A stretch of DNA of 36,652 nucleotides from Flavobacteriaceae bacterium (GTDB lineage: Bacteria; Bacteroidota; Bacteroidia; Flavobacteriales; Flavobacteriaceae): the NCBI GenBank assembly GCA_019634365.1, contig JAHQVM010000112.1, positions 1-36,652 on the forward strand, in the 5' to 3' direction. The position numbers were made by a program, and so were the translations under genes. This document shows, piece after piece, positions 14,845-23,447 of this stretch. The notes beneath the pieces are model-generated. The model searched no databases. It was not told the DNA's origin and saw nothing but the letters and a program-made list of their open reading frames with translations. The stretch's first letter is position 1; each line of letters opens with the position of its first letter.

Positions 14845-17163
14845 TTACCAGTATAATCGAAGTAAGAAATTAGGGGTAAAACCCAATGAAAACCTGTCCA
14901 CCACGGTAACAGGATCGTTGATATTGTTATTACCGAAATATTCACGGCTCAAATAATTCCTTTTGTCGTAGAGATTCCTAATGGAAAAGCCCATTTTTCC
15001 ACGAAGGGGACTTGTTTTCGAAAAACGAAAGGTATAGGTGGAAGAAATATCCAAGCGATGATAATTGGGCAATCGCTTTGTGTTTATTTTTTGAAAATAC
15101 AGCTCATCCGTGGAAGGTATGGTAATGGCTTCGGTAAAGGGTCTACCTGTATGCCAATTCCAACCCAAAGCCACTTCGAACCCTTTTAAGCGATAGGTAA
15201 CAGATGCCGTAACATTATGCCGTATGCTATTGCTGGCAGTAAAATAATCATCATTGTTTAATTCGCGATACTTACTTCGAACTTGGTTAATGGAATAGCT
15301 GAACCACGTATTAAAAGAGGAAAAATCTTTTTTAATGTAGAAATCGGCTCCTACTATTTTTTGCTCCCCAATATGAAACTGACTGTCCAACGGATTTAAA
15401 AAACCCAAGGCCAATGCGGTTAAGCCATCTATCTTCTTATAGTAGGCATCGGCGTCTAAAGTCCACCCTTTATTATTATACACCATCCCTGCCGAAACCT
15501 GATGGCTCTTTATAATGGGAAAGGTATTCCCATCGGCAAGGCGCCACAAACGATTTTCAAGGGAAAGGTCGCTCAATACGGTCTCATCTATTTCACTAAT
15601 GATCTGGCTGCGTACTTCCCCAGATACCTGAAGCCTAACATTTTTGAATACATCCTTATAAATGAAAATCCTTGGCTCGATTCGGAAGTCATCCAAATTT
15701 TGAAAATAATTCACCCGAACCCCTATTGCGACATCAAAAAGCTTTGGGTTTCGGTAATCGTAATTGCCAAACAGCGAATGGGTTCGCTCGACGGTCTGAT
15801 CGCTGTCCAAAACAAAAGACAACTGCGCTGTTTCCAAAAAGGCATAACTCACGTCTTTTAAGGAATATTGATATCCTAGGGAATATTCTTGGGCATCGCT
15901 TGTTTCGAAAAAGAATTCGGTCGAAACTCCAGAATCGAAGATCACATTCTTTTTTTCGAAATCGGACACTTGTTCCGAATCTTCAAATTCCAACAAATTA
16001 TAGGTAAATCGGTATTTGGAAATGGAAGCGACCACCTCCTGTCGCATCCTATCGTCCCATTGCGCATGCCATTGGAGCCCATAACCTTCATTGCTGATCT
16101 CCAATAGATCGTTTAACAGACTTCCATTGTCCGTATCCCGCACGACATAATCAAGGTCATTATCTATTTGGATGGTGCTTAAGTGTACACGGTGGCGGTC
16201 ATTGGGTCGATAATTCAGTTTAATAGTATAGTCCTGAAAGAAGAAATCGTTGTTGGTATTCTCCGAATTCGTGATTTTGGTACTTTCAAATACCTTGTCG
16301 GCCATTCTATCGAAGGTAAACGACTGAAACAATTCATCATAACTCCTTCGAATTCCTGCTTGAACATCCAACTTTTCCTTCAAAATGGGTACATCCAGAT
16401 AGGCATCTGCTCCCACTCCGTTAATGCCTATTCCCCCCGAAAATCGATCGGATATATTCCTCCCAGAGGAAATGGAAACCACACTCGAAAGCCGTTCTCC
16501 ATATCGGGGATGCGTTCCTTTATTCTGAAACTGGACATCTTCGATACGATTGGGATTAAAGGCCGAAATCATTCCAAAGAGATGACCCTTATGGTAAATA
16601 TTGATTCCATCCCAAAGAATTCTATTCTGGTCTGCCCTTCCGCCACGAACATTGAATCCCGTTGCCGTTTCATTGGGACTAATGACCCCTGGCAACAACT
16701 GAATACTCTCAAGCACATCCGATTCGGTAAGACCTGGAAGCGCTCCCAATTCGTTAGGACGCAAAGTAAAGGTTCCATCCTTGCGCTTATAGATCCCTTG
16801 GGTAAGGTAGCTAGTAACAATAACATCATTCAATTGTTGAATATCGGCGAAGTCAGAGGTAGCAGCATATACGGATATATACCGCTCATCGATCCTTTGA
16901 AAACGGATTTGAAGGGATAGTTCCAATTCTGTCAACAATTCATCAAGTGTATAATCCCCATCAACCAATGTGACTACCGTATCCGTAAATAGCGCATCTT
17001 GATAGGAAAAGCGCACGTCGAAAACATCTTCTATGTGAGATAGTACTTCGGATACATCCGTTTCATTGAACTGAACACGAAAAGCAGCCGTTTCCTGGGA
17101 AAAAGCTGCTGTAAAGGGAAAGAATAGGATAAAAATCCAATAAAGGGTATTTCTTCTATTCAT
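14845..17163 (-). CDS. TonB-dependent outer membrane receptor with STN signalling domain
   Basis: This 772-residue receptor has a signal peptide (cleavage near FSQ). An STN domain follows (residues about 25-100, VSEVLSHIEDVFDVRFSYQD onward), then a TonB-box/plug region (residues about 120-240, with SDVLESIQLLPGV, GFNVRGG and ILWDGINIYH), and then a 22-strand-type barrel ending in the terminal aromatic LRLYW. An STN domain on a TonB-dependent receptor touches the periplasmic FecR domain and reports ligand uptake. There is no SusD partner gene. The ATG at 17163 overlaps the fecR stop by 8 nt (ATGAATAG); ten upstream in-frame codons lack signal-peptide character. The ligand is unknown. Confidence 0.9.
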   Translation of the reverse strand: MNRRNTLYWIFILFFPFTAAFSQETAAFRVQFNETDVSEVLSHIEDVFDVRFSYQDALFTDTVVTLVDGDYTLDELLTELELSLQIRFQRIDERYISVYAATSDFADIQQLNDVIVTSYLTQGIYKRKDGTFTLRPNELGALPGLTESDVLESIQLLPGVISPNETATGFNVRGGRADQNRILWDGINIYHKGHLFGMISAFNPNRIEDVQFQNKGTHPRYGERLSSVVSISSGRNISDRFSGGIGINGVGADAYLDVPILKEKLDVQAGIRRSYDELFQSFTFDRMADKVFESTKITNSENTNNDFFFQDYTIKLNYRPNDRHRVHLSTIQIDNDLDYVVRDTDNGSLLNDLLEISNEGYGLQWHAQWDDRMRQEVVASISKYRFTYNLLEFEDSEQVSDFEKKNVIFDSGVSTEFFFETSDAQEYSLGYQYSLKDVSYAFLETAQLSFVLDSDQTVERTHSLFGNYDYRNPKLFDVAIGVRVNYFQNLDDFRIEPRIFIYKDVFKNVRLQVSGEVRSQIISEIDETVLSDLSLENRLWRLADGNTFPIIKSHQVSAGMVYNNKGWTLDADAYYKKIDGLTALALGFLNPLDSQFHIGEQKIVGADFYIKKDFSSFNTWFSYSINQVRSKYRELNNDDYFTASNSIRHNVTASVTYRLKGFEVALGWNWHTGRPFTEAITIPSTDELYFQKINTKRLPNYHRLDISSTYTFRFSKTSPLRGKMGFSIRNLYDKRNYLSREYFGNNNINDPVTVVDRFSLGFTPNFLLRLYW

Positions 17164-18079
17164 ATGGGCGAAGTACAACCACGTTTTGGTCATTGTAGCT
17201 GTACGCTATTCGCATGGCGTTGAACACCGTAGACAGTGCTACTTCTTGGTTATTATGTCCGAAACTTCCCGTAAACCGAGCACTGTCATCAATTGCTTTG
17301 GTATCGAACGTTAGTGAATATTGTTTTTCCAATTCGTTTAGGACGTAATTGAGTGGTACACTTTTAAAGCTGCTTTCTCCTTGCAGCCAGCTCGGCCTGC
17401 CTTGTGCAGACCTTCCTTCCTCAACAGCAAATCCGTTGATCCTGCGTACCGTCATACCCGGTAATAATACGCGAGCTTCATCTTGGTTACGCACCTCTAC
17501 CATTCCTTCATAACAGGTTACTTCAAAATAGTCCAAAGTGGTCTTTACATTAAACTGTGTCCCTAACACCTTAACGCTACCATTGTTGGTCATGACCGTA
17601 AAGGCACTCCCTTTCTCGACCTTGAAATAAGCCTCACCGTCCAATCGAACCTCACGGTTAGCGTCCCAATTGCCTTCATCATAACTCAATTGTGTCTTGG
17701 CATTCAATATGACTTCAGATTCGTCTAACAACGCAATAGTAATCTGTTCCGAAAATGAAGTGGAAATGGTCGTTGTTCCGTTTTCAAAATAAAAATAGCT
17801 TGCCAAAAATAAAAGAAGGGAAGCCGCTATTGCCATAGCCAAACGGATATTCTTTCTTCGAATAGGCTTTACCTTTCCTTTTGAATGAATCCGATCCTGA
17901 ATGGCAGCAAAGGAATCTTCACTTGGTGGACTGAGGAGTTCTGTACCTAGCTTTAATTTTCTGTAGAACGCTATATCTTCTTCAGATACGTGCTTCGACA
18001 GTTCGGCATCGGTTATTTCACCGGCCATCCATTGGGCGAGATACACTTCTTGATCGTTATTTAAATTCGTTTTTTCCAT
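17156..18079 (-). CDS. FecR family anti-sigma factor
   Basis: This 307-residue protein has a cytoplasmic N-terminus (about 75 residues, sigma-binding), one membrane segment (LAMAIAASLLLFLASYFYF, residues about 81-100), a periplasmic FecR domain (ILNAKTQLSYDEGNW, LDGEAYFKVEKG, VKVLGTQFNVK), and a C-terminal STN-like DUF4974 domain (FKSVPLNYVLNELEKQY). In FecIR systems it holds the sigma factor until the loaded receptor signals. It is translationally coupled to the receptor gene (8-nt overlap). Directly upstream lies a 30-bp two-box element also found before the Kazal lipoprotein gene, so fecR and the receptor are likely autoregulated by the sigma factor. Confidence 0.93.
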   Translation of the reverse strand: MEKTNLNNDQEVYLAQWMAGEITDAELSKHVSEEDIAFYRKLKLGTELLSPPSEDSFAAIQDRIHSKGKVKPIRRKNIRLAMAIAASLLLFLASYFYFENGTTTISTSFSEQITIALLDESEVILNAKTQLSYDEGNWDANREVRLDGEAYFKVEKGSAFTVMTNNGSVKVLGTQFNVKTTLDYFEVTCYEGMVEVRNQDEARVLLPGMTVRRINGFAVEEGRSAQGRPSWLQGESSFKSVPLNYVLNELEKQYSLTFDTKAIDDSARFTGSFGHNNQEVALSTVFNAMRIAYSYNDQNVVVLRPYE

Positions 18080-18092
18080 AGATCATCATGGG

Positions 18093-18122
18093 TACGACAA
18101 TTCAGCAAGGGAAAACCCTACC
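18093..18122 (-). promoter_or_regulatory. candidate ECF sigma promoter of fecR-receptor
   Basis: On the minus strand GGTAGGGTTTT (18122-18112), 11 nt, then TTGTCGTA (18100-18093). The same two boxes, with identical spacing, recur on the plus strand at 18718-18747 (24 of 30 positions identical; differences sit almost only in the spacer). The second box ends 13 nt before the fecR ATG, so the leader would be very short. The two-box form is compatible with an ECF (FecI-type) promoter. Confidence 0.78.
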
Positions 18123-18138
18123 TTATATTCATTTTATT

Positions 18139-18651
18139 TTAAACATTTCCTATTTTTTCCCGCATCGTCTTCAATGCCAAATGCATTCTCTTTTCTACTG
18201 CTTTAACCGAAATCCCAAGTATTTGGCTTATTTCTGCATACTTCTTTTTCTCCATCCTATTCATTAAGAAAACCTCTCGTTGGGTCTCGGGCAAGTCTGC
18301 AATGGCTTGTTCAATCTTTTGGAGGAATTCTTTCTCCAACAGAATGAACTCAGGTGATTCGGGATTGTTCTTTGCAATGGAGTTCTTTTCAAAATTCCGT
18401 TTCACTTTTCTGTGCTTGATCCAATTCAGAAAAATATGGTTGGCAGAGGTAAACAAATATCCTTTTACTTTACTGTAGGAAACGCGATCACAATTTTCCC
18501 AGAGTTTTACAAATGCTTCCTGCAGGATATCCTCGGTCAAATCCAAATCCTGAGTCTTAAAGAATAGGAATTGTTTCAAATCACGGGAATGGGTTTTGAA
18601 AATAGTTTCAAAAACGGCCGGTTTACATATTTTTTCCAGTTCTTTGAGCAT
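18139..18651 (-). CDS. ECF RNA polymerase sigma factor, FecI-like
   Basis: This 170-residue sigma-70 family protein has region 2 (DLTEDILQEAFVKLWEN and a VKGYLFTSANHIFLNWIKHRK segment) and region 4 (DLPETQREVFLMNRMEKKKYAEISQILGIS, split by a turn, then VKAVEKRMHLALK). The length and the linker fit Bacteroidota FecI-type ECF factors. It directly precedes fecR and the STN receptor gene, the standard layout of a cell-surface signalling module. Its own promoter seems to be different from the shared 30-bp element: only a housekeeping-like -7 box (18687-18694) is seen, which would keep a basal level of sigma factor. Confidence 0.93.
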   Translation of the reverse strand: MLKELEKICKPAVFETIFKTHSRDLKQFLFFKTQDLDLTEDILQEAFVKLWENCDRVSYSKVKGYLFTSANHIFLNWIKHRKVKRNFEKNSIAKNNPESPEFILLEKEFLQKIEQAIADLPETQREVFLMNRMEKKKYAEISQILGISVKAVEKRMHLALKTMREKIGNV

Positions 18652-18686
18652 GGTTGGATCACAAACTTTTGGGTCTGGGGTGTGGT

Positions 18687-18694
18687 CAAAGCTA
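18687..18694 (-). promoter_or_regulatory. candidate -7 box for the sigma factor gene
   Basis: TAGCTTTG on the minus strand fits TAnnTTTG and would give a leader of about 30 nt. A -33 box is not evident. No copy of the ECF-type element lies in this direction. Confidence 0.35.
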
Positions 18695-18717
18695 TGTAAA
18701 AAATTAATTTATTCTTG

Positions 18718-18747
18718 GGTAGGGTTTTTTAATCCTGAGTTGTCGTA
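18718..18747 (+). promoter_or_regulatory. candidate ECF sigma promoter of the Kazal lipoprotein gene
   Basis: GGTAGGGTTTT (18718-18728), 11 nt, then TTGTCGTA (18740-18747): the same element as the one before fecR, on the opposite strand. It ends 47 nt upstream of the lipoprotein ATG. Conserved boxes around a diverged spacer of equal length are what a shared sigma-factor promoter would look like. Confidence 0.8.
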
Positions 18748-18794
18748 TGGTTGATTAATCGCAAAAAAGCGCGCCCACTATTAACCTTAAACCT

Positions 18795-20480
18795 ATGAAA
18801 ATGAAGCATTTCAAAATATTTTTTGCCGCATGCCTACTTTCACTCATGTTTGTGGCTTGTACTAATGATGAAGCCATAACGCCCCCGCAAAATGTTCAGG
18901 AAAGTGAGTCCGTGCAAAATGCATTATCGCAGTTGGAAACCCATTTCGATGACAACGGAGTCCTACTTAGTGATACCAACCCAACGGGGAATCTGGTCAT
19001 CGATTTTTGTTTCGAGTTCGTTTATCCCATTACCCTCATTTACAATAACGGCGCAACCGTTACGGTTGAAAATCTGGGTGAACTTATCACGGTCATCCTA
19101 AATTCAACCCCAGAACTCTATATAGTAGGGATTGAATTCCCCTTCGATGTCATATGGTATAATCCTGCTACGAATGAGACCGAAGTGGTGACGATTAATA
19201 ATGAAGATGAATTCATCACCTTAATCGAAACCTGTAATTTCGATCCTTGCATCTGTCCCGATGTGGTCGATCCCGTATGTGTTGAAATCATTACCGATGA
19301 AGGCCCCATAATTCTAACGTTCCCAAATCCATGTATTGCAGAATGCGAAGGGTTTACTGAAGAAGACTATGTAGATTGCGAAAACGACTGTCAATGTACC
19401 GATGAGTACGAGCCTGTTTGTGTAGAAAGCGGCGGTGCCATTATTGAATTCGGAAACGAATGTTTGGCCCTTTGTGAAGGATTTACTCCCGAAGACTTTG
19501 TAGATTGTCCAACCGATTGTGACTGTCCAACAGAAATAGATCCAGTCTGTGTGGAGACTCCGAGCGGAAATATCATTCAGTTCGACAATGAGTGCTTAGC
19601 ACTTTGTGAAGGCTTCGAAGTTGAGGATTTTGTGGACTGTCCCGTTGAAGATTGCGAGATTACCAATGTTACCGTAGAGGTTGGCGAATGTGATGCTGCT
19701 GGCAACGTATACGAAGTCACCATCGATTTTGAGGTACTTAATCCTACCGGCGATACTTTCGAAGTAACTAAGTTAGACGGTGTTTTAATTGGAAGCTTCC
19801 CTTACACAAGTCTACCACTCACCCTTGAGTTTGAATCCAATGCTGCCGAAGCTGGAGTAATTGTTTGTGTTAGTGATGTCCCTGAATGTTGTACCACCAT
19901 AACCTGGATTCCCCCAACATGTGGCGGAGGTGAATGTGCCATTACCAATTTAACCGTGGATGTTGGCGAATGCGACCCATCAGGGGTGTATGCACTCACC
20001 ATTGATTTCGATTATGTAAATGCAGATAATGAATTCTTCGATTTGTTTATTAGGGACGAAGTTTTCATTGGATTCTTCGAACTTTCACAATTACCACTTA
20101 CTATTGCTTTCGAGCCCAGTGGATTCGATAATGACTATATCCGGGTATGTATCAACGATAACCCAGATTGTTGTGCAGAAATCGAATGGGTTCCACCTGC
20201 CTGTCCCGGGGAGTGTGAATGCAACAGTCTATACGATCCTGTATGCGTAGGTACTGGCGGAGCAGTGATAACCTATTTTAACGCCTGTTATGCAGAATGT
20301 GATGGATTCACCGAAGCTGATTACGTAGACTGTGATCCTGTTGAACCGTGTGTCGATTGTATCTCAGAACCTTACGAACCTCTATGTGTAGAATTTGGAG
20401 GAACCGTACTCACCATGTACAATGAATGCTTCCTATTCTGTAACGGATTTACAGGCGATGATATCGTTGACTGTAATTAA
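18795..20480 (+). CDS. lipoprotein with five Kazal-like modules
   Basis: This is a 561-residue lipoprotein with lipobox LMFVAC (Cys22). The acidic pair in CTNDE just after the Cys resembles surface-export signals of Bacteroidota lipoproteins. Residues about 35-147 form an N-terminal domain (CFEFVYPITLIYNNGATVTV). Five Kazal-like cysteine modules follow at about 152-195, 199-238, 242-282, 474-513 and 519-560, each of the form C-x-C...DPVCV...F-x-N-x-C-x-A-x-C-x-GF...D-x-VDC. Between modules 3 and 4 are two copies of a roughly 90-residue Cys-containing beta domain (287-376, 381-470). Kazal domains inhibit serine proteases, but these loops lack the usual VCGxDGxTY, so binding roles are equally possible. 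The divergent sigma/FecR/receptor genes and the shared promoter element tie it to that system. The protein is very acidic. Confidence 0.82.
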   Translation: MKMKHFKIFFAACLLSLMFVACTNDEAITPPQNVQESESVQNALSQLETHFDDNGVLLSDTNPTGNLVIDFCFEFVYPITLIYNNGATVTVENLGELITVILNSTPELYIVGIEFPFDVIWYNPATNETEVVTINNEDEFITLIETCNFDPCICPDVVDPVCVEIITDEGPIILTFPNPCIAECEGFTEEDYVDCENDCQCTDEYEPVCVESGGAIIEFGNECLALCEGFTPEDFVDCPTDCDCPTEIDPVCVETPSGNIIQFDNECLALCEGFEVEDFVDCPVEDCEITNVTVEVGECDAAGNVYEVTIDFEVLNPTGDTFEVTKLDGVLIGSFPYTSLPLTLEFESNAAEAGVIVCVSDVPECCTTITWIPPTCGGGECAITNLTVDVGECDPSGVYALTIDFDYVNADNEFFDLFIRDEVFIGFFELSQLPLTIAFEPSGFDNDYIRVCINDNPDCCAEIEWVPPACPGECECNSLYDPVCVGTGGAVITYFNACYAECDGFTEADYVDCDPVEPCVDCISEPYEPLCVEFGGTVLTMYNECFLFCNGFTGDDIVDCN

Positions 20481-20523
20481 GACTAGCGCTCTAGAATACG
20501 TTGGTTGTTAAGTTTAAGTTGGT

Positions 20524-20557
20524 AGGCCGCCCTATTGGGTGGCCTGTTTTATTTTAT
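20524..20557 (+). terminator. rho-independent terminator after the Kazal lipoprotein gene
   Basis: A 9-bp stem (AGGCCGCCC / GGGTGGCCT, one G-T pair) with a TATT loop spans 20524-20545 and is followed by GTTTTATTTTAT. Confidence 0.88.
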
Positions 20558-20560
20558 AGG

Positions 20561-20589
20561 TTGGGTTTCACTTCTAAATAGTACCTTTG
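20561..20589 (+). promoter_or_regulatory. candidate promoter for dgkA
   Basis: TTG (20561-20563), an 18-nt spacer and TACCTTTG (20582-20589) match the Bacteroidota housekeeping pattern. The start would lie about 18 nt before the GTG start codon of dgkA. Confidence 0.6.
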
Positions 20590-20613
20590 CGGCCTAACAT
20601 GTTCCCAGATTAA

Positions 20614-20976
20614 GTGAAGAAAAAGTCCTTTCTCGTAAAACGATTGCTCGGTTTTAAATACGCTACCAAAGGCGCATGGATGCTTCTTAAAAACGAAGCG
20701 AGTATTCAAGTGCAAGCCGCTATTGCAGTGATCATGACAGTGGCGGGTTTTTATTTTCAAATCTCTCCTGCCGAATGGATTTTTCAAACATTGGCCATCG
20801 GTTTGGTAATGAGTATCGAGGGGCTAAACACAGCAGCAGAGGAAATCGCAAACTTTGTCCATCCAGACTTCCATAACAAAATTGGATATATTAAAGATGT
20901 CGCAGCAGGGGCCGTTTTCTTCGCGGCCATTGCAGCCGTGGTCGTAGGCTGTATTATTTACATTCCAAAATTCTGA
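20614..20976 (+). CDS. dgkA: diacylglycerol/undecaprenol kinase family protein
   Basis: This 120-residue membrane protein of the prokaryotic DgkA fold has three hydrophobic helices. The family signature is EGLNTAAEEIANFV (residues about 69-82), with Glu and Asn residues that bind Mg-ATP. Gram-positive and Bacteroidota members often phosphorylate undecaprenol rather than diacylglycerol, so the lipid substrate is open. The start is GTG at 20614; no in-frame ATG lies upstream before the promoter. It precedes ftsK at 71 nt. Confidence 0.88.
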   Translation: MKKKSFLVKRLLGFKYATKGAWMLLKNEASIQVQAAIAVIMTVAGFYFQISPAEWIFQTLAIGLVMSIEGLNTAAEEIANFVHPDFHNKIGYIKDVAAGAVFFAAIAAVVVGCIIYIPKF

Positions 20977-21022
20977 TCGGTAAACTTCAAAATTTTATCT
21001 AGATTCGAACGTTAACAATTTG

Positions 21023-21030
21023 TACTTTTG
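21023..21030 (+). promoter_or_regulatory. candidate -7 box for ftsK
   Basis: TACTTTTG fits TAnnTTTG and lies 17 nt upstream of the ftsK ATG. A -33 TTG at the normal distance is not visible. Confidence 0.4.
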
Positions 21031-21047
21031 TGTAACGACAACCAACT

Positions 21048-23447
21048 ATGGCGAAAAAAAAGACAACAAAAAAAAGGACAGCCAAAAAACCTAGAAAAAA
21101 AATATCCTTCTCGCTTTCAAGGCAACAAAAAATCATCTTGGGTTGTGCCCTGTTCTTTTTCGGTCTAGCGCTGCTCTTTTCCTTTATTTCCTATTTCTTC
21201 ACCTGGCAGGCAGACCAAAGTGCCGTAGGTGAGTTGAGTAGGGAGAATGACGCACAGAATTGGTTGTCATCTGTGGGAAGGGATTTATCAGAATTCTTTA
21301 TCGGAAATGGTTTTGGGATTTCCGCCTTTATCATAGCATTTCTCATTGGACTTACGGGCATTTATTTTTTCTTCGATTACGCAAAAAAACAATTGCTTCG
21401 ATTTTGGTTTTGGGGACTACTTATGACCGTATGGCTTTCCGTCTTTTTTGGTTTTTTCGCAGTAGAAAAGACCATCTTTAGCGGAGTAGTCGGTTTCGAA
21501 ATCAATGACTTGCTACAGCAGTATATGGGGCTCATAGGAGCCATCTTAGTGATGGCATTTTTGGCAGTCATTTATTTGGTGATTCGCCTAAAAATGACTC
21601 CTGAAAAAATTTCCGCCGCCCTTAAAAAGACCAAAAAAGAAATCCAAGACGATTTTAATACAGATCAATCGCTACCATCGGATGAAACCGGAATTGAGCA
21701 AACCGATTATGAAAAAGAAGTCATCGACACGGTGATAACGCCTACTCAGGAAATTAATCTGAATCCTGAACCCATAGAAGATGAAATTCTGGAGGAGCCC
21801 ACCCTAAAAACTGTTGAAGAACCTACTAAGGCTGAAGCTCCGGAAATGGACGTTACCATGGAAGTAGAAGCGGCACCTCAGGAAGAAGAAGTGACCGAGA
21901 ATCTTGCCAAAAAACTGGTGGATGATTTTGGTGAATTCGATCCTACTTTGGAATTGGGTAATTTTAAATTCCCTACCATCGAATTGCTGAAAGATTACAG
22001 TGGTGGGCAAGGTATTACGATTAATCAAGAAGAACTGGAGGCCAACAAAAATCGTATTGTCCAGACCCTGAGCAATTACAAAATTGGTATTGCCAACATT
22101 AAAGCTACCGTAGGACCCACGGTTACCCTTTACGAAATCGTACCGGAAGCCGGGATTCGAATTTCGAAAATCAAGAACCTAGAAGATGACATTGCCCTTT
22201 CCCTTTCGGCATTGGGCATTCGAATCATTGCCCCAATCCCGGGAAGAGGAACCATTGGTATTGAAGTGCCCAACAAGAATCCGCAAATCGTATCCATGCG
22301 ATCTGCCGTGGCCTCACCCAAGTTTCAGAATGCAGAAATGGAACTTCCCCTCACCCTGGGGAAAACCATTAGCAATGAAACCTTCGTGGTGGATTTGGCG
22401 AAAATGCCGCACTTGTTGATGGCGGGAGCCACGGGGCAGGGAAAATCGGTTGGATTAAATGCCATACTTACCTCCTTGCTGTACAAAAAACATCCTGCTG
22501 AGGTTAAATTTGTTTTGGTAGATCCCAAAAAAGTGGAACTAACACTTTTCAATAAAATAGAACGGCACTATTTGGCGAAATTACCAGATACCGAAGAGGC
22601 TATCATTACCGATACCAATAAGGTGATCAACACTTTGAATTCCCTGTGTATCGAGATGGATACACGTTATGATCTCCTTAAGGACGCCATGTGCCGTAAC
22701 ATTAAGGAGTACAATGTTAAATTCAAGGCAAGGAAACTAAATCCGCATGACGGGCACAAGTTTTTACCCTATATCGTATTGGTCATCGACGAATTTGCCG
22801 ACCTCATCATGACGGCGGGTAAAGAAGTGGAAACACCTATCGCGCGTTTGGCACAATTGGCCCGTGCCATTGGTATTCATTTAATTATTGCCACCCAACG
22901 ACCTTCGGTAAATGTAATCACCGGTATCATTAAGGCGAATTTCCCGGCCAGAATTGCATTCAGGGTGACCAGTAAAATCGATTCTCGTACGATCTTGGAT
23001 GCCGCTGGAGCCGATCAGTTAATCGGTCGAGGTGACATGTTATATACCCAAGGGAACGATCTCACCCGGATTCAATGTGCCTTTGTCGACACTCCAGAAG
23101 TTGCCGATATCACCGAATATATTGGTTCCCAGAAAGCGTATCCCGATGCCCATCTCCTTCCAGAGTATGTGGGTGAAGAAGGTGGCACAACTATTGATAT
23201 AAGTGTGGAAGAACGGGACAAATTGTTTCGTGAAGCCGCAGAAGTTTTAGTCATTGCGCAGCAAGGTTCGGCCTCGCTATTGCAACGAAAATTAAAGCTA
23301 GGGTACAATCGCGCCGGCCGTATCATAGATCAACTAGAGGCAGCAGGTGTGGTAGGTCCCTTCGAAGGCAGCAAGGCGAGACAGGTACTCGTTCCAACAA
23401 TAGATGCATTAAACCAACTTTTAGACAACGAAAACAACGATTTGTAA
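21048..23447 (+). CDS. ftsK: DNA translocase FtsK
   Basis: This 799-residue septal DNA pump moves chromosome termini through the closing septum and activates dimer resolution. A basic, Lys-rich N-terminus (residues 1-25) is followed by four or so membrane segments up to about residue 180 and an acidic linker (about 190-290). The motor domain has Walker A GATGQGKSVG (near residue 459) and Walker B LVIDEFADLI (near 575). The C-terminal gamma winged helix (LLQRKLKLGYNRAGRIIDQLE) would read polar DNA motifs. The length is typical for Bacteroidota FtsK/SpoIIIE. lolA starts one base after the stop, so ftsK-lolA-lptG form an operon. Confidence 0.96.
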   Translation: MAKKKTTKKRTAKKPRKKISFSLSRQQKIILGCALFFFGLALLFSFISYFFTWQADQSAVGELSRENDAQNWLSSVGRDLSEFFIGNGFGISAFIIAFLIGLTGIYFFFDYAKKQLLRFWFWGLLMTVWLSVFFGFFAVEKTIFSGVVGFEINDLLQQYMGLIGAILVMAFLAVIYLVIRLKMTPEKISAALKKTKKEIQDDFNTDQSLPSDETGIEQTDYEKEVIDTVITPTQEINLNPEPIEDEILEEPTLKTVEEPTKAEAPEMDVTMEVEAAPQEEEVTENLAKKLVDDFGEFDPTLELGNFKFPTIELLKDYSGGQGITINQEELEANKNRIVQTLSNYKIGIANIKATVGPTVTLYEIVPEAGIRISKIKNLEDDIALSLSALGIRIIAPIPGRGTIGIEVPNKNPQIVSMRSAVASPKFQNAEMELPLTLGKTISNETFVVDLAKMPHLLMAGATGQGKSVGLNAILTSLLYKKHPAEVKFVLVDPKKVELTLFNKIERHYLAKLPDTEEAIITDTNKVINTLNSLCIEMDTRYDLLKDAMCRNIKEYNVKFKARKLNPHDGHKFLPYIVLVIDEFADLIMTAGKEVETPIARLAQLARAIGIHLIIATQRPSVNVITGIIKANFPARIAFRVTSKIDSRTILDAAGADQLIGRGDMLYTQGNDLTRIQCAFVDTPEVADITEYIGSQKAYPDAHLLPEYVGEEGGTTIDISVEERDKLFREAAEVLVIAQQGSASLLQRKLKLGYNRAGRIIDQLEAAGVVGPFEGSKARQVLVPTIDALNQLLDNENNDL

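Follow-up and report, generated by a model that had tools for sequence, protein, structure and literature searches.

Gene content of the locus

The window analysed here is a 36,652-nt stretch of a Flavobacteriaceae draft genome (3.29 Mb, 144 contigs, 88.55% complete), and it harbors a cell-surface signalling module of the FecI/FecR/TonB type, comprising an ECF sigma factor, a FecR-type anti-sigma factor and a TonB-dependent receptor with both a signalling domain and a plug. A lipoprotein gene on the plus strand diverges from the sigma gene on the minus strand, which is followed on the same strand by fecR and then by the receptor gene. The sigma factor (P0001, 170 aa; 18139..18651, minus strand) consists of regions 2 and 4 only, with Sigma70_r2 (PF04542) and Sigma70_r4_2 (PF08281) scoring over cut-off and a score of 123.4 bits against TIGR02985, just below the cut-off of 126.4. 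Against the FecI equivalog model NF041727 it reaches 59.7 bits, with a cut-off of 260, and it is therefore not classed as FecI proper, the ferric citrate sigma factor. The initial annotation, made from the sequence alone, had placed a FecI-type ECF sigma gene next to the element described below; the factor is indeed FecI-like by its domains, though far under the cut-off of the FecI equivalog.

The anti-sigma factor (P0002, 307 aa; 17156..18079, minus strand) matches PF04773 over cut-off (65.6 bits), while its C-terminal FecR_C region scores 24.0 bits, just below the cut-off of 24.4; reading of its sequence places one membrane span near residues 77-97. The receptor (P0003, 782 aa; 14845..17193, minus strand) carries an N-terminal FecR_C/STN-like domain (residues 41-106, 26.3 bits) and a Plug domain (residues 158-234, 29.9 bits), both over cut-off. 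As annotated, the receptor ORF overlaps fecR by 38 nt (window 17156-17193); translation may in fact begin at the ATG at 17163, which would give a more usual signal peptide. The divergent gene (18795..20480, plus strand) encodes a 561-aa protein (P0004) whose translation has a lipobox with Cys22 and could be aligned with 22 homologues.

A twin two-box element on both sides of the sigma gene

The pattern GGTAGGGTTTT-N11-TTGTCGTA, consisting of a box A, an 11-nt spacer and a box B, has exactly two matches in the whole window, both without mismatches, and none in 100 dinucleotide shuffles. Copy 1, on the minus strand at 18093..18122, runs from box A (18122-18112) over the spacer (18111-18101) to box B (18100-18093). 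It lies in the gap that separates the sigma gene from fecR, ends 13 nt before the fecR ATG (18079) and is a probable sigma-dependent promoter of fecR and the receptor gene. Copy 2, on the plus strand at 18718..18747, has its box A at 18718-18728, its spacer at 18729-18739 and its box B at 18740-18747. It stops 47 nt short of the start codon of the lipoprotein gene (ATG at 18795) and is probably the promoter from which the sigma factor transcribes that divergent gene. Because dgkA, ftsK, a LolA-like gene and lptF-like genes come next in the window, the lipoprotein gene is probably a one-gene target.

Pattern matching and a count on the sequence reproduce what the initial annotation had reported of these two 30-bp copies, namely their positions and strands and 24 identical positions out of 30. 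Its statement that the boxes are conserved and the spacer is not also holds, as the boxes agree at 19/19 positions and the spacers at 5/11, and the spacers vary between loci as well. It had further observed that the element is absent before the sigma gene itself, and a pattern search of both strands likewise found no copy directed into the sigma gene in the window.

Conservation of the element among relatives

Related sigma genes were collected by a protein scan, and the best 80 of its 517 candidates are referred to as the named loci. An element was called where at least 17 of the 19 box positions matched within 200 nt of the sigma gene, using a relaxed consensus that had been set after the loci had been inspected. 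Among these best 80 of 517, fecR follows the sigma gene in 79 and the receptor gene follows in 76, while a P0004-like divergent gene occurs in 55, together with fecR and the receptor in 54; four loci reach a contig edge on that side.

The element flanks the sigma gene on both sides in 66 of the 80 named loci (best 80 of 517; shuffles 0.0 per set), being found on the divergent side in 67 and after the sigma gene in 74 (shuffles 0.1 and 0.0 per set). The initial annotation had suggested an alignment of the same intergenic regions in related genomes, and this recurrence is in line with its proposal. Across loci the boxes are kept while the spacers differ, and the copies occupy the same two places, in the same orientations, at related sigma genes. 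More distant sigma homologues (40 loci) have the element on the divergent side in 28, after the sigma gene in 27 and on both sides in 23, the last with 0.0 per set in shuffles. By comparison, none of the 643 other genes of the named loci has it on both sides, and three have it on the downstream side. When the window's own letters replace the relaxed consensus, both sides are recovered in 43/80 loci at no more than 3/19 mismatches and in 64/80 at no more than 5 (again the best 80 of 517). The two-sided test was failed by 14 of the 80 named loci (best 80 of 517) and 17 of the 40 distant ones, some of which have a diverged element or end at a contig boundary.

Within the family, the relaxed pattern was found in 89 of 299 Flavobacteriaceae genomes, and the reversed control in 6. 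A class-level sample of 28 loci, one of which was too short, left 27 to be read against a threshold set by the best of 10 shuffles. The twin rose above the shuffles in 3 of these 27 (L161 and L162 in the same family, L163 in another), so the element is rejected as a phylum-wide rule and the layout appears, in this sample, to be mainly a feature of Flavobacteriaceae. Pedobacter cryophilus (L045) has both copies, and some other class-level loci have a single GGGG-TTGTC-like site after the sigma gene.

Copies elsewhere in the genome and the two other modules

In the draft genome to which the window belongs, GGTAGGGTTTT-N11-TTGTCGTA matches only the two window copies within 2 mismatches. A third match at 3 mismatches sits inside a 227-aa ORF and was discarded as chance level, the reversed control also giving 3 matches. 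A relative of the same genus (G156/G445) likewise has two copies only, the relaxed pattern giving one forward and one reverse match. The initial annotation had held that a genome with only these two copies would mean a dedicated sigma factor and that more copies would extend the regulon; by that measure, the factor would be a dedicated one in its own and the same-genus genome, but two Winogradskyella genomes with a third copy do not follow. Copies were counted in nine genomes reached via the named loci, using the TTGTC form of box B and at most 1 mismatch (controls total 3): three genomes have 2 copies, two Winogradskyella have 3 and 4, two have 1 and two have 0, the loci with 0 copies (Kordia, Aquimarina) using the other form of box B. 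Winogradskyella eximia and W. luteola each have an extra exact copy before a gene for a lipoprotein with two CxxCH motifs (L190:1237-1265, L191:1213-1241), indicating that the regulon is not always limited to two promoters. This lipoprotein is likely a third target, and probably the same distant target in both species; in both, its gene is followed by a gene for a large FG-GAP-like surface protein. At another locus (L056:4545 and 4775 (-)), two more elements of the form AGTAGGGTGTT-N11-CTGTTTTA/CTGTTATA are found at no more than 1.5 kb from the sigma gene.

The draft genome has three FecR genes and three FecI-FecR modules, each with a twin of its own that differs from the others, box A reading GGTAGGGTTTT, TTCAGGAGTTT or RGTAGGAATTT. 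The twin of the module on contig 67 (L117) is TTCAGGAGTTT-N11-TTGTTTTA/TTGTTATA and that of the module on contig 42 is RGTAGGAATTT-N11-TTGTTATA/TTGTTTTA, with TTGTTWTA as box B in both. Their copies share 18/19 positions each, compared with 13-16 (contig 67) and 13-14 (contig 42) in six shuffles, and each pattern has two exact copies in the genome, at its own sigma gene. One further copy of the contig-67 element, with 1 mismatch (L188:1019-1048), lies 16 nt before a 7TM_transglut and ATPgrasp_ST gene pair, and a third copy of the contig-42 element, also with 1 mismatch (L118:8469-8498), lies 30 nt before a gene for a fasciclin-domain lipoprotein; the latter element has one more genome copy at 2 mismatches. 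At 3 mismatches the matches come near control level (9 vs 5 for the contig-67 pattern, 12 vs 7 for the contig-42 pattern). At L188, the first gene of the pair codes for a 7TM/inactive-transglutaminase protein and the second for a sugar-transfer-associated ATP-grasp protein, and the divergent ORF of L148 looks alike by eye.

Co-variation of the two copies within loci

Co-variation was assessed with 83 sigma representatives sharing less than 80% identity, 69 of which have both elements at a score of at least 15. The two copies of one locus differ on average by 1.32 mismatches in box A and 1.23 in box B (n=69), compared with 1.92 and 2.14 for copies re-paired between loci (2000 permutations that did not keep kinship; minima 1.54 and 1.80), and at 50 of the 69 loci both copies begin box B with the same five letters. 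A motif-free comparison of the two flanks yielded 17/19 shared positions in 40 of 83 loci, with 0.4 in shuffles. Re-paired flanks of different loci also reach 17/19 in 14-24 of 83, suggesting that a large part of the element belongs to many sigma factors alike and that private specificity is partial. The motif-free scan has a broad spacer optimum at 8-12 nt (47/83 at 10, 40/83 at 11) and does not single out exactly 11 nt.

Sigma residues were also compared with box B. Lys at residue 79 goes with T as the first base of box B in 37/39 cases, and Ala or Glu with C in 14/14, which is suggestive of a box B reader; however, these cases reduce to 3 independent pairs on the tree with a non-significant sign test, and residue 79 was set aside. 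Residues 34, 62 and 85 track clades and were likewise rejected as box B readers.

Geometry of the probable promoters and a candidate box of the sigma gene

The distance from the end of box B to the fecR ATG is 8-24 nt in 129/141 rows and that to the divergent ATG is 18-52 nt in 105/128 rows, with some genomes counted twice in both; the window's 13 and 47 nt fall within these ranges. The short gap before fecR suggests a fecR leader of a few nucleotides.

For the sigma gene itself, sequence reading points to a candidate TAnnTTTG box of the Bacteroidota housekeeping (sigma-A) type, -7-like, at 18687..18694 on the minus strand (TAGCTTTG). TAnnTTTG occurs on the sigma strand within 120 nt of the sigma gene in 74 of the 80 named loci (best 80 of 517); the opposite strand has it in 9, and shuffles in 7.6. 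Upstream of the box, the majority sequence shows the complement of box A and a T tract, without a -33 TTTG. In the window the box lies 35 nt from the ATG, and 23 nt separate it from the divergent copy's box A. The latter gap has precisely this length in 45 of 67 named loci (named loci being the best 80 of 517), in 32/57 representatives and in 10/21 of those at less than 65% identity. The 23-nt stretches have an identity of 0.61, compared with 0.48 expected from composition, and relatedness therefore explains part of this constancy. The frequent 23-nt gap places the predicted sigma-gene and divergent promoters back to back, an arrangement in which they may exclude each other.

The partner lipoproteins

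A simple lipobox pattern was detected in 99 of the 128 divergent ORFs that follow an element (58/72 at named loci, 41/56 at others). The partner lipoproteins, including those of the genome's other two modules, have in common an N-terminal repeat, FP-x-x-V-x(4)-G-x(4)-I-x-S-x-E-E-L. Profile comparison relates three lipoprotein groups at 97.9-99.6% probability, values to be read with caution given the few sequences and the repeats. In L102, L104, L107, L108 and L124, the divergent lipoprotein has 332 aa and is built almost throughout of about six FP-x-x-V...EEL repeats, part of it matching DUF7767 (over cut-off in L124). Almost no Pfam families were recognised in the partner lipoproteins, and none in P0004 at E <= 0.001.

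P0004 itself has a repeat domain at its N terminus and Cys-rich modules of Kazal-like appearance, and a low-confidence AlphaFold2 model (mean pLDDT 77.6, pTM 0.34) suggests two beta-sandwich domains. At E <= 0.001, a fold search of the PDB with this model hit antibody, cytokine-receptor and beta-glucuronidase chains, four matches in all, which are uninformative given TM-scores no higher than 0.14 of the query and rmsd above 10. The short helix-strand modules and the Cys pattern of P0004 look Kazal-like, and a Kazal-like Cys pattern occurs in 61 of 111 divergent proteins longer than 150 aa. However, Pfam gave no Kazal match in P0004 up to E 1, and Kazal_2 appeared only in L052, with E 0.054 and 14.0 bits against a cut-off of 22.8. 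With no Pfam Kazal match over cut-off, Kazal remains a pattern here and an inhibitor function for P0004 is rejected; the gene product, called a Kazal lipoprotein in the initial annotation, keeps the second half of that name through its lipobox (Cys22) but not the first.

The most likely guess for the role of the partner lipoprotein is that of a surface partner of the receptor. Past the lipoprotein gene, L034 has a ferritin-like gene and a LysR-type regulator (L034:3801-4280), where the window has dgkA, ftsK and the LolA-like gene, and many Winogradskyella and Psychroserpens loci have ORFs of 159 and 312 aa there, sizes as in L034.

Interpretation and alternative explanations

Collectively, these analyses indicate that each twin element is very probably, at a likelihood we put at nearly nine in ten, a promoter recognised by the ECF sigma factor whose gene the two copies enclose. 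The initial annotation had proposed the element as the promoter of the adjacent sigma factor, with FecR, receptor and lipoprotein forming one regulon, and this is the best-supported reading of the sequence evidence, given the asymmetry and orientation of the element, its recurrence at sigma loci and the co-variation of its copies. The sequence itself shows the twin elements, their conservation, orientation and co-variation within loci, and the gene order; we infer that the sigma factor reads both elements, that transcription starts from them and that lipoprotein and receptor cooperate. Compared with the initial annotation, the wide occurrence of the layout in the family, the twin belonging to each module and the predicted housekeeping-type box of the sigma gene, back to back with the divergent copy, are new.

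Box A would be the -35-like part and box B the -10-like part of such a promoter. Housekeeping RNA polymerase would supply a basal amount of sigma factor from the TAnnTTTG promoter, and FecR would keep it inactive until an occupied TonB-dependent receptor signals through FecR with its N-terminal domain, as in FecI/FecR biology. The active sigma factor would then transcribe fecR and the receptor gene from copy 1 and the divergent lipoprotein gene from copy 2, but not its own gene. As the receptor-lipoprotein pair would be amplified together with the anti-sigma factor, the system could switch off quickly after the signal ends.

An alternative scenario, which we consider unlikely though worth weighing, is that FecI-class promoters are common to several sigma paralogues of a cell and that the modules cross-talk. 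The family-wide spread of the relaxed pattern (89/299 genomes; control 6) and the frequent match of re-paired flanks from different loci would agree with it, but one genome has three forms of box A, with each exact pattern found only at its own sigma gene, and the copies co-vary within loci. Operators of a separate DNA-binding regulator of fecR-receptor and the lipoprotein gene are a far less probable explanation. Two conserved boxes one helical step apart could suit a regulator, but the boxes are dissimilar, not palindromic and always in one orientation towards the gene, and the elements are at sigma genes (0/643 other genes) and vary with the sigma locus. Moreover, the sigma-fecR-receptor-lipoprotein unit contains no further conserved regulator gene, the LysR-type gene past the lipoprotein gene in L034, with a 312-aa ORF there in many others, being absent from the window. 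A leftover inverted repeat (mobile element ends or a recombination site) or an RNA element is hardly credible, since, although the copies form an inverted pair around one gene (I1, 54 nt, 72% complementary), the boxes are kept while the spacers vary between species, the spacing to the start codons is kept, the enclosed gene is always a sigma gene and no Rfam match was found in window positions 16000-21500.

Beyond the reading of the elements as promoters of the enclosed sigma factor, a wider scenario is offered tentatively and at less than even odds. Flavobacteriaceae may use a self-limiting, insulated switch in which each FecI-type sigma gene sits between two private promoters and the divergent one is held 23 nt from the housekeeping promoter of the sigma gene itself, so that the active sigma factor would induce its anti-sigma factor and block its own synthesis. 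One lipoprotein family, with a shared N-terminal repeat and exchangeable C-terminal modules, could provide the receptor's ligand-binding lid or its substrate, and flank comparison could read promoter code and regulon without experiment.

Flavobacteria have many FecI-type sigma factors without known targets. Since a copy of the probable promoter of the sigma factor stands on either side of its gene, comparison of the two flanks may give the promoter code, with which the rest of the regulon can be searched, and it has already yielded candidate distant targets in this genome and two relatives. The finding further links a family of unannotated lipoproteins to TonB-dependent receptors and points to natural sets of separate sigma-promoter pairs within one cell. 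The layout, which recurs in many related marine bacteria, would make the genes under such sigma switches predictable from sequence.

Comparison with known systems

The literature searched, which did not include the main ECF classification and may therefore lack a published motif, yielded neither the twin element nor a layout with a sigma gene between two such promoters. Bacteroides polysaccharide loci resemble the window in having an ECF sigma gene adjoining genes for a FecR-type anti-sigma factor and a TonB-dependent receptor, but the twin is mostly absent from the class-level sample. In the available portion of a 2013 study of Bacteroides, predicting ECF-controlled promoters was called challenging (PMC3878776), and excerpts of a further report describe a 5' end mapped inside an anti-sigma gene, without a housekeeping consensus (PMC11501099). 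Within the same family, the Flavobacterium psychrophilum motif SM6 is a mapped ECF-type promoter motif, for which the part of its report consulted gives a CGT box within the -10 region as the defining feature and T9SS genes as targets (PMC9723704). The window copies also contain CGT, while the orthologue consensus is TTGTCTTA, SM6 being compared here by its description.

The domain content of sigma factor, anti-sigma factor and receptor is similar to that of Escherichia coli FecI/FecR/FecA. According to the sections drawn on of one account, fecIR of E. coli lacks autoregulation, the promoter used by FecI being located before fecA (PMC9249621); unlike that arrangement, the window has a predicted sigma-type promoter between the sigma gene and fecR. 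Closer to the window is Serratia marcescens HasI/HasS/HasR, which also combines an ECF sigma factor, a FecR-like anti-sigma factor and a TonB-dependent receptor, and in which, in the same sections, HasI activates the genes hasS and hasR without activating its own, the -35 sequence being TTTACGGGTTT (PMC9249621). By eye, this -35 sequence and GGTAGGGTTTT have a core like AGGGTTT/CGGGTTT in common. The Has system differs, as far as the portion consulted goes, in that HasA is a secreted hemophore encoded in the same operon direction, whereas the window has a divergent lipoprotein without a Pfam family. With the predicted element before fecR in 74 of the 80 named loci (best 80 of 517) and none directed into the sigma gene in the window, the locus fits, without being classed as Has, a Has-type circuit in which the sigma factor would drive the gene of its own anti-sigma factor.
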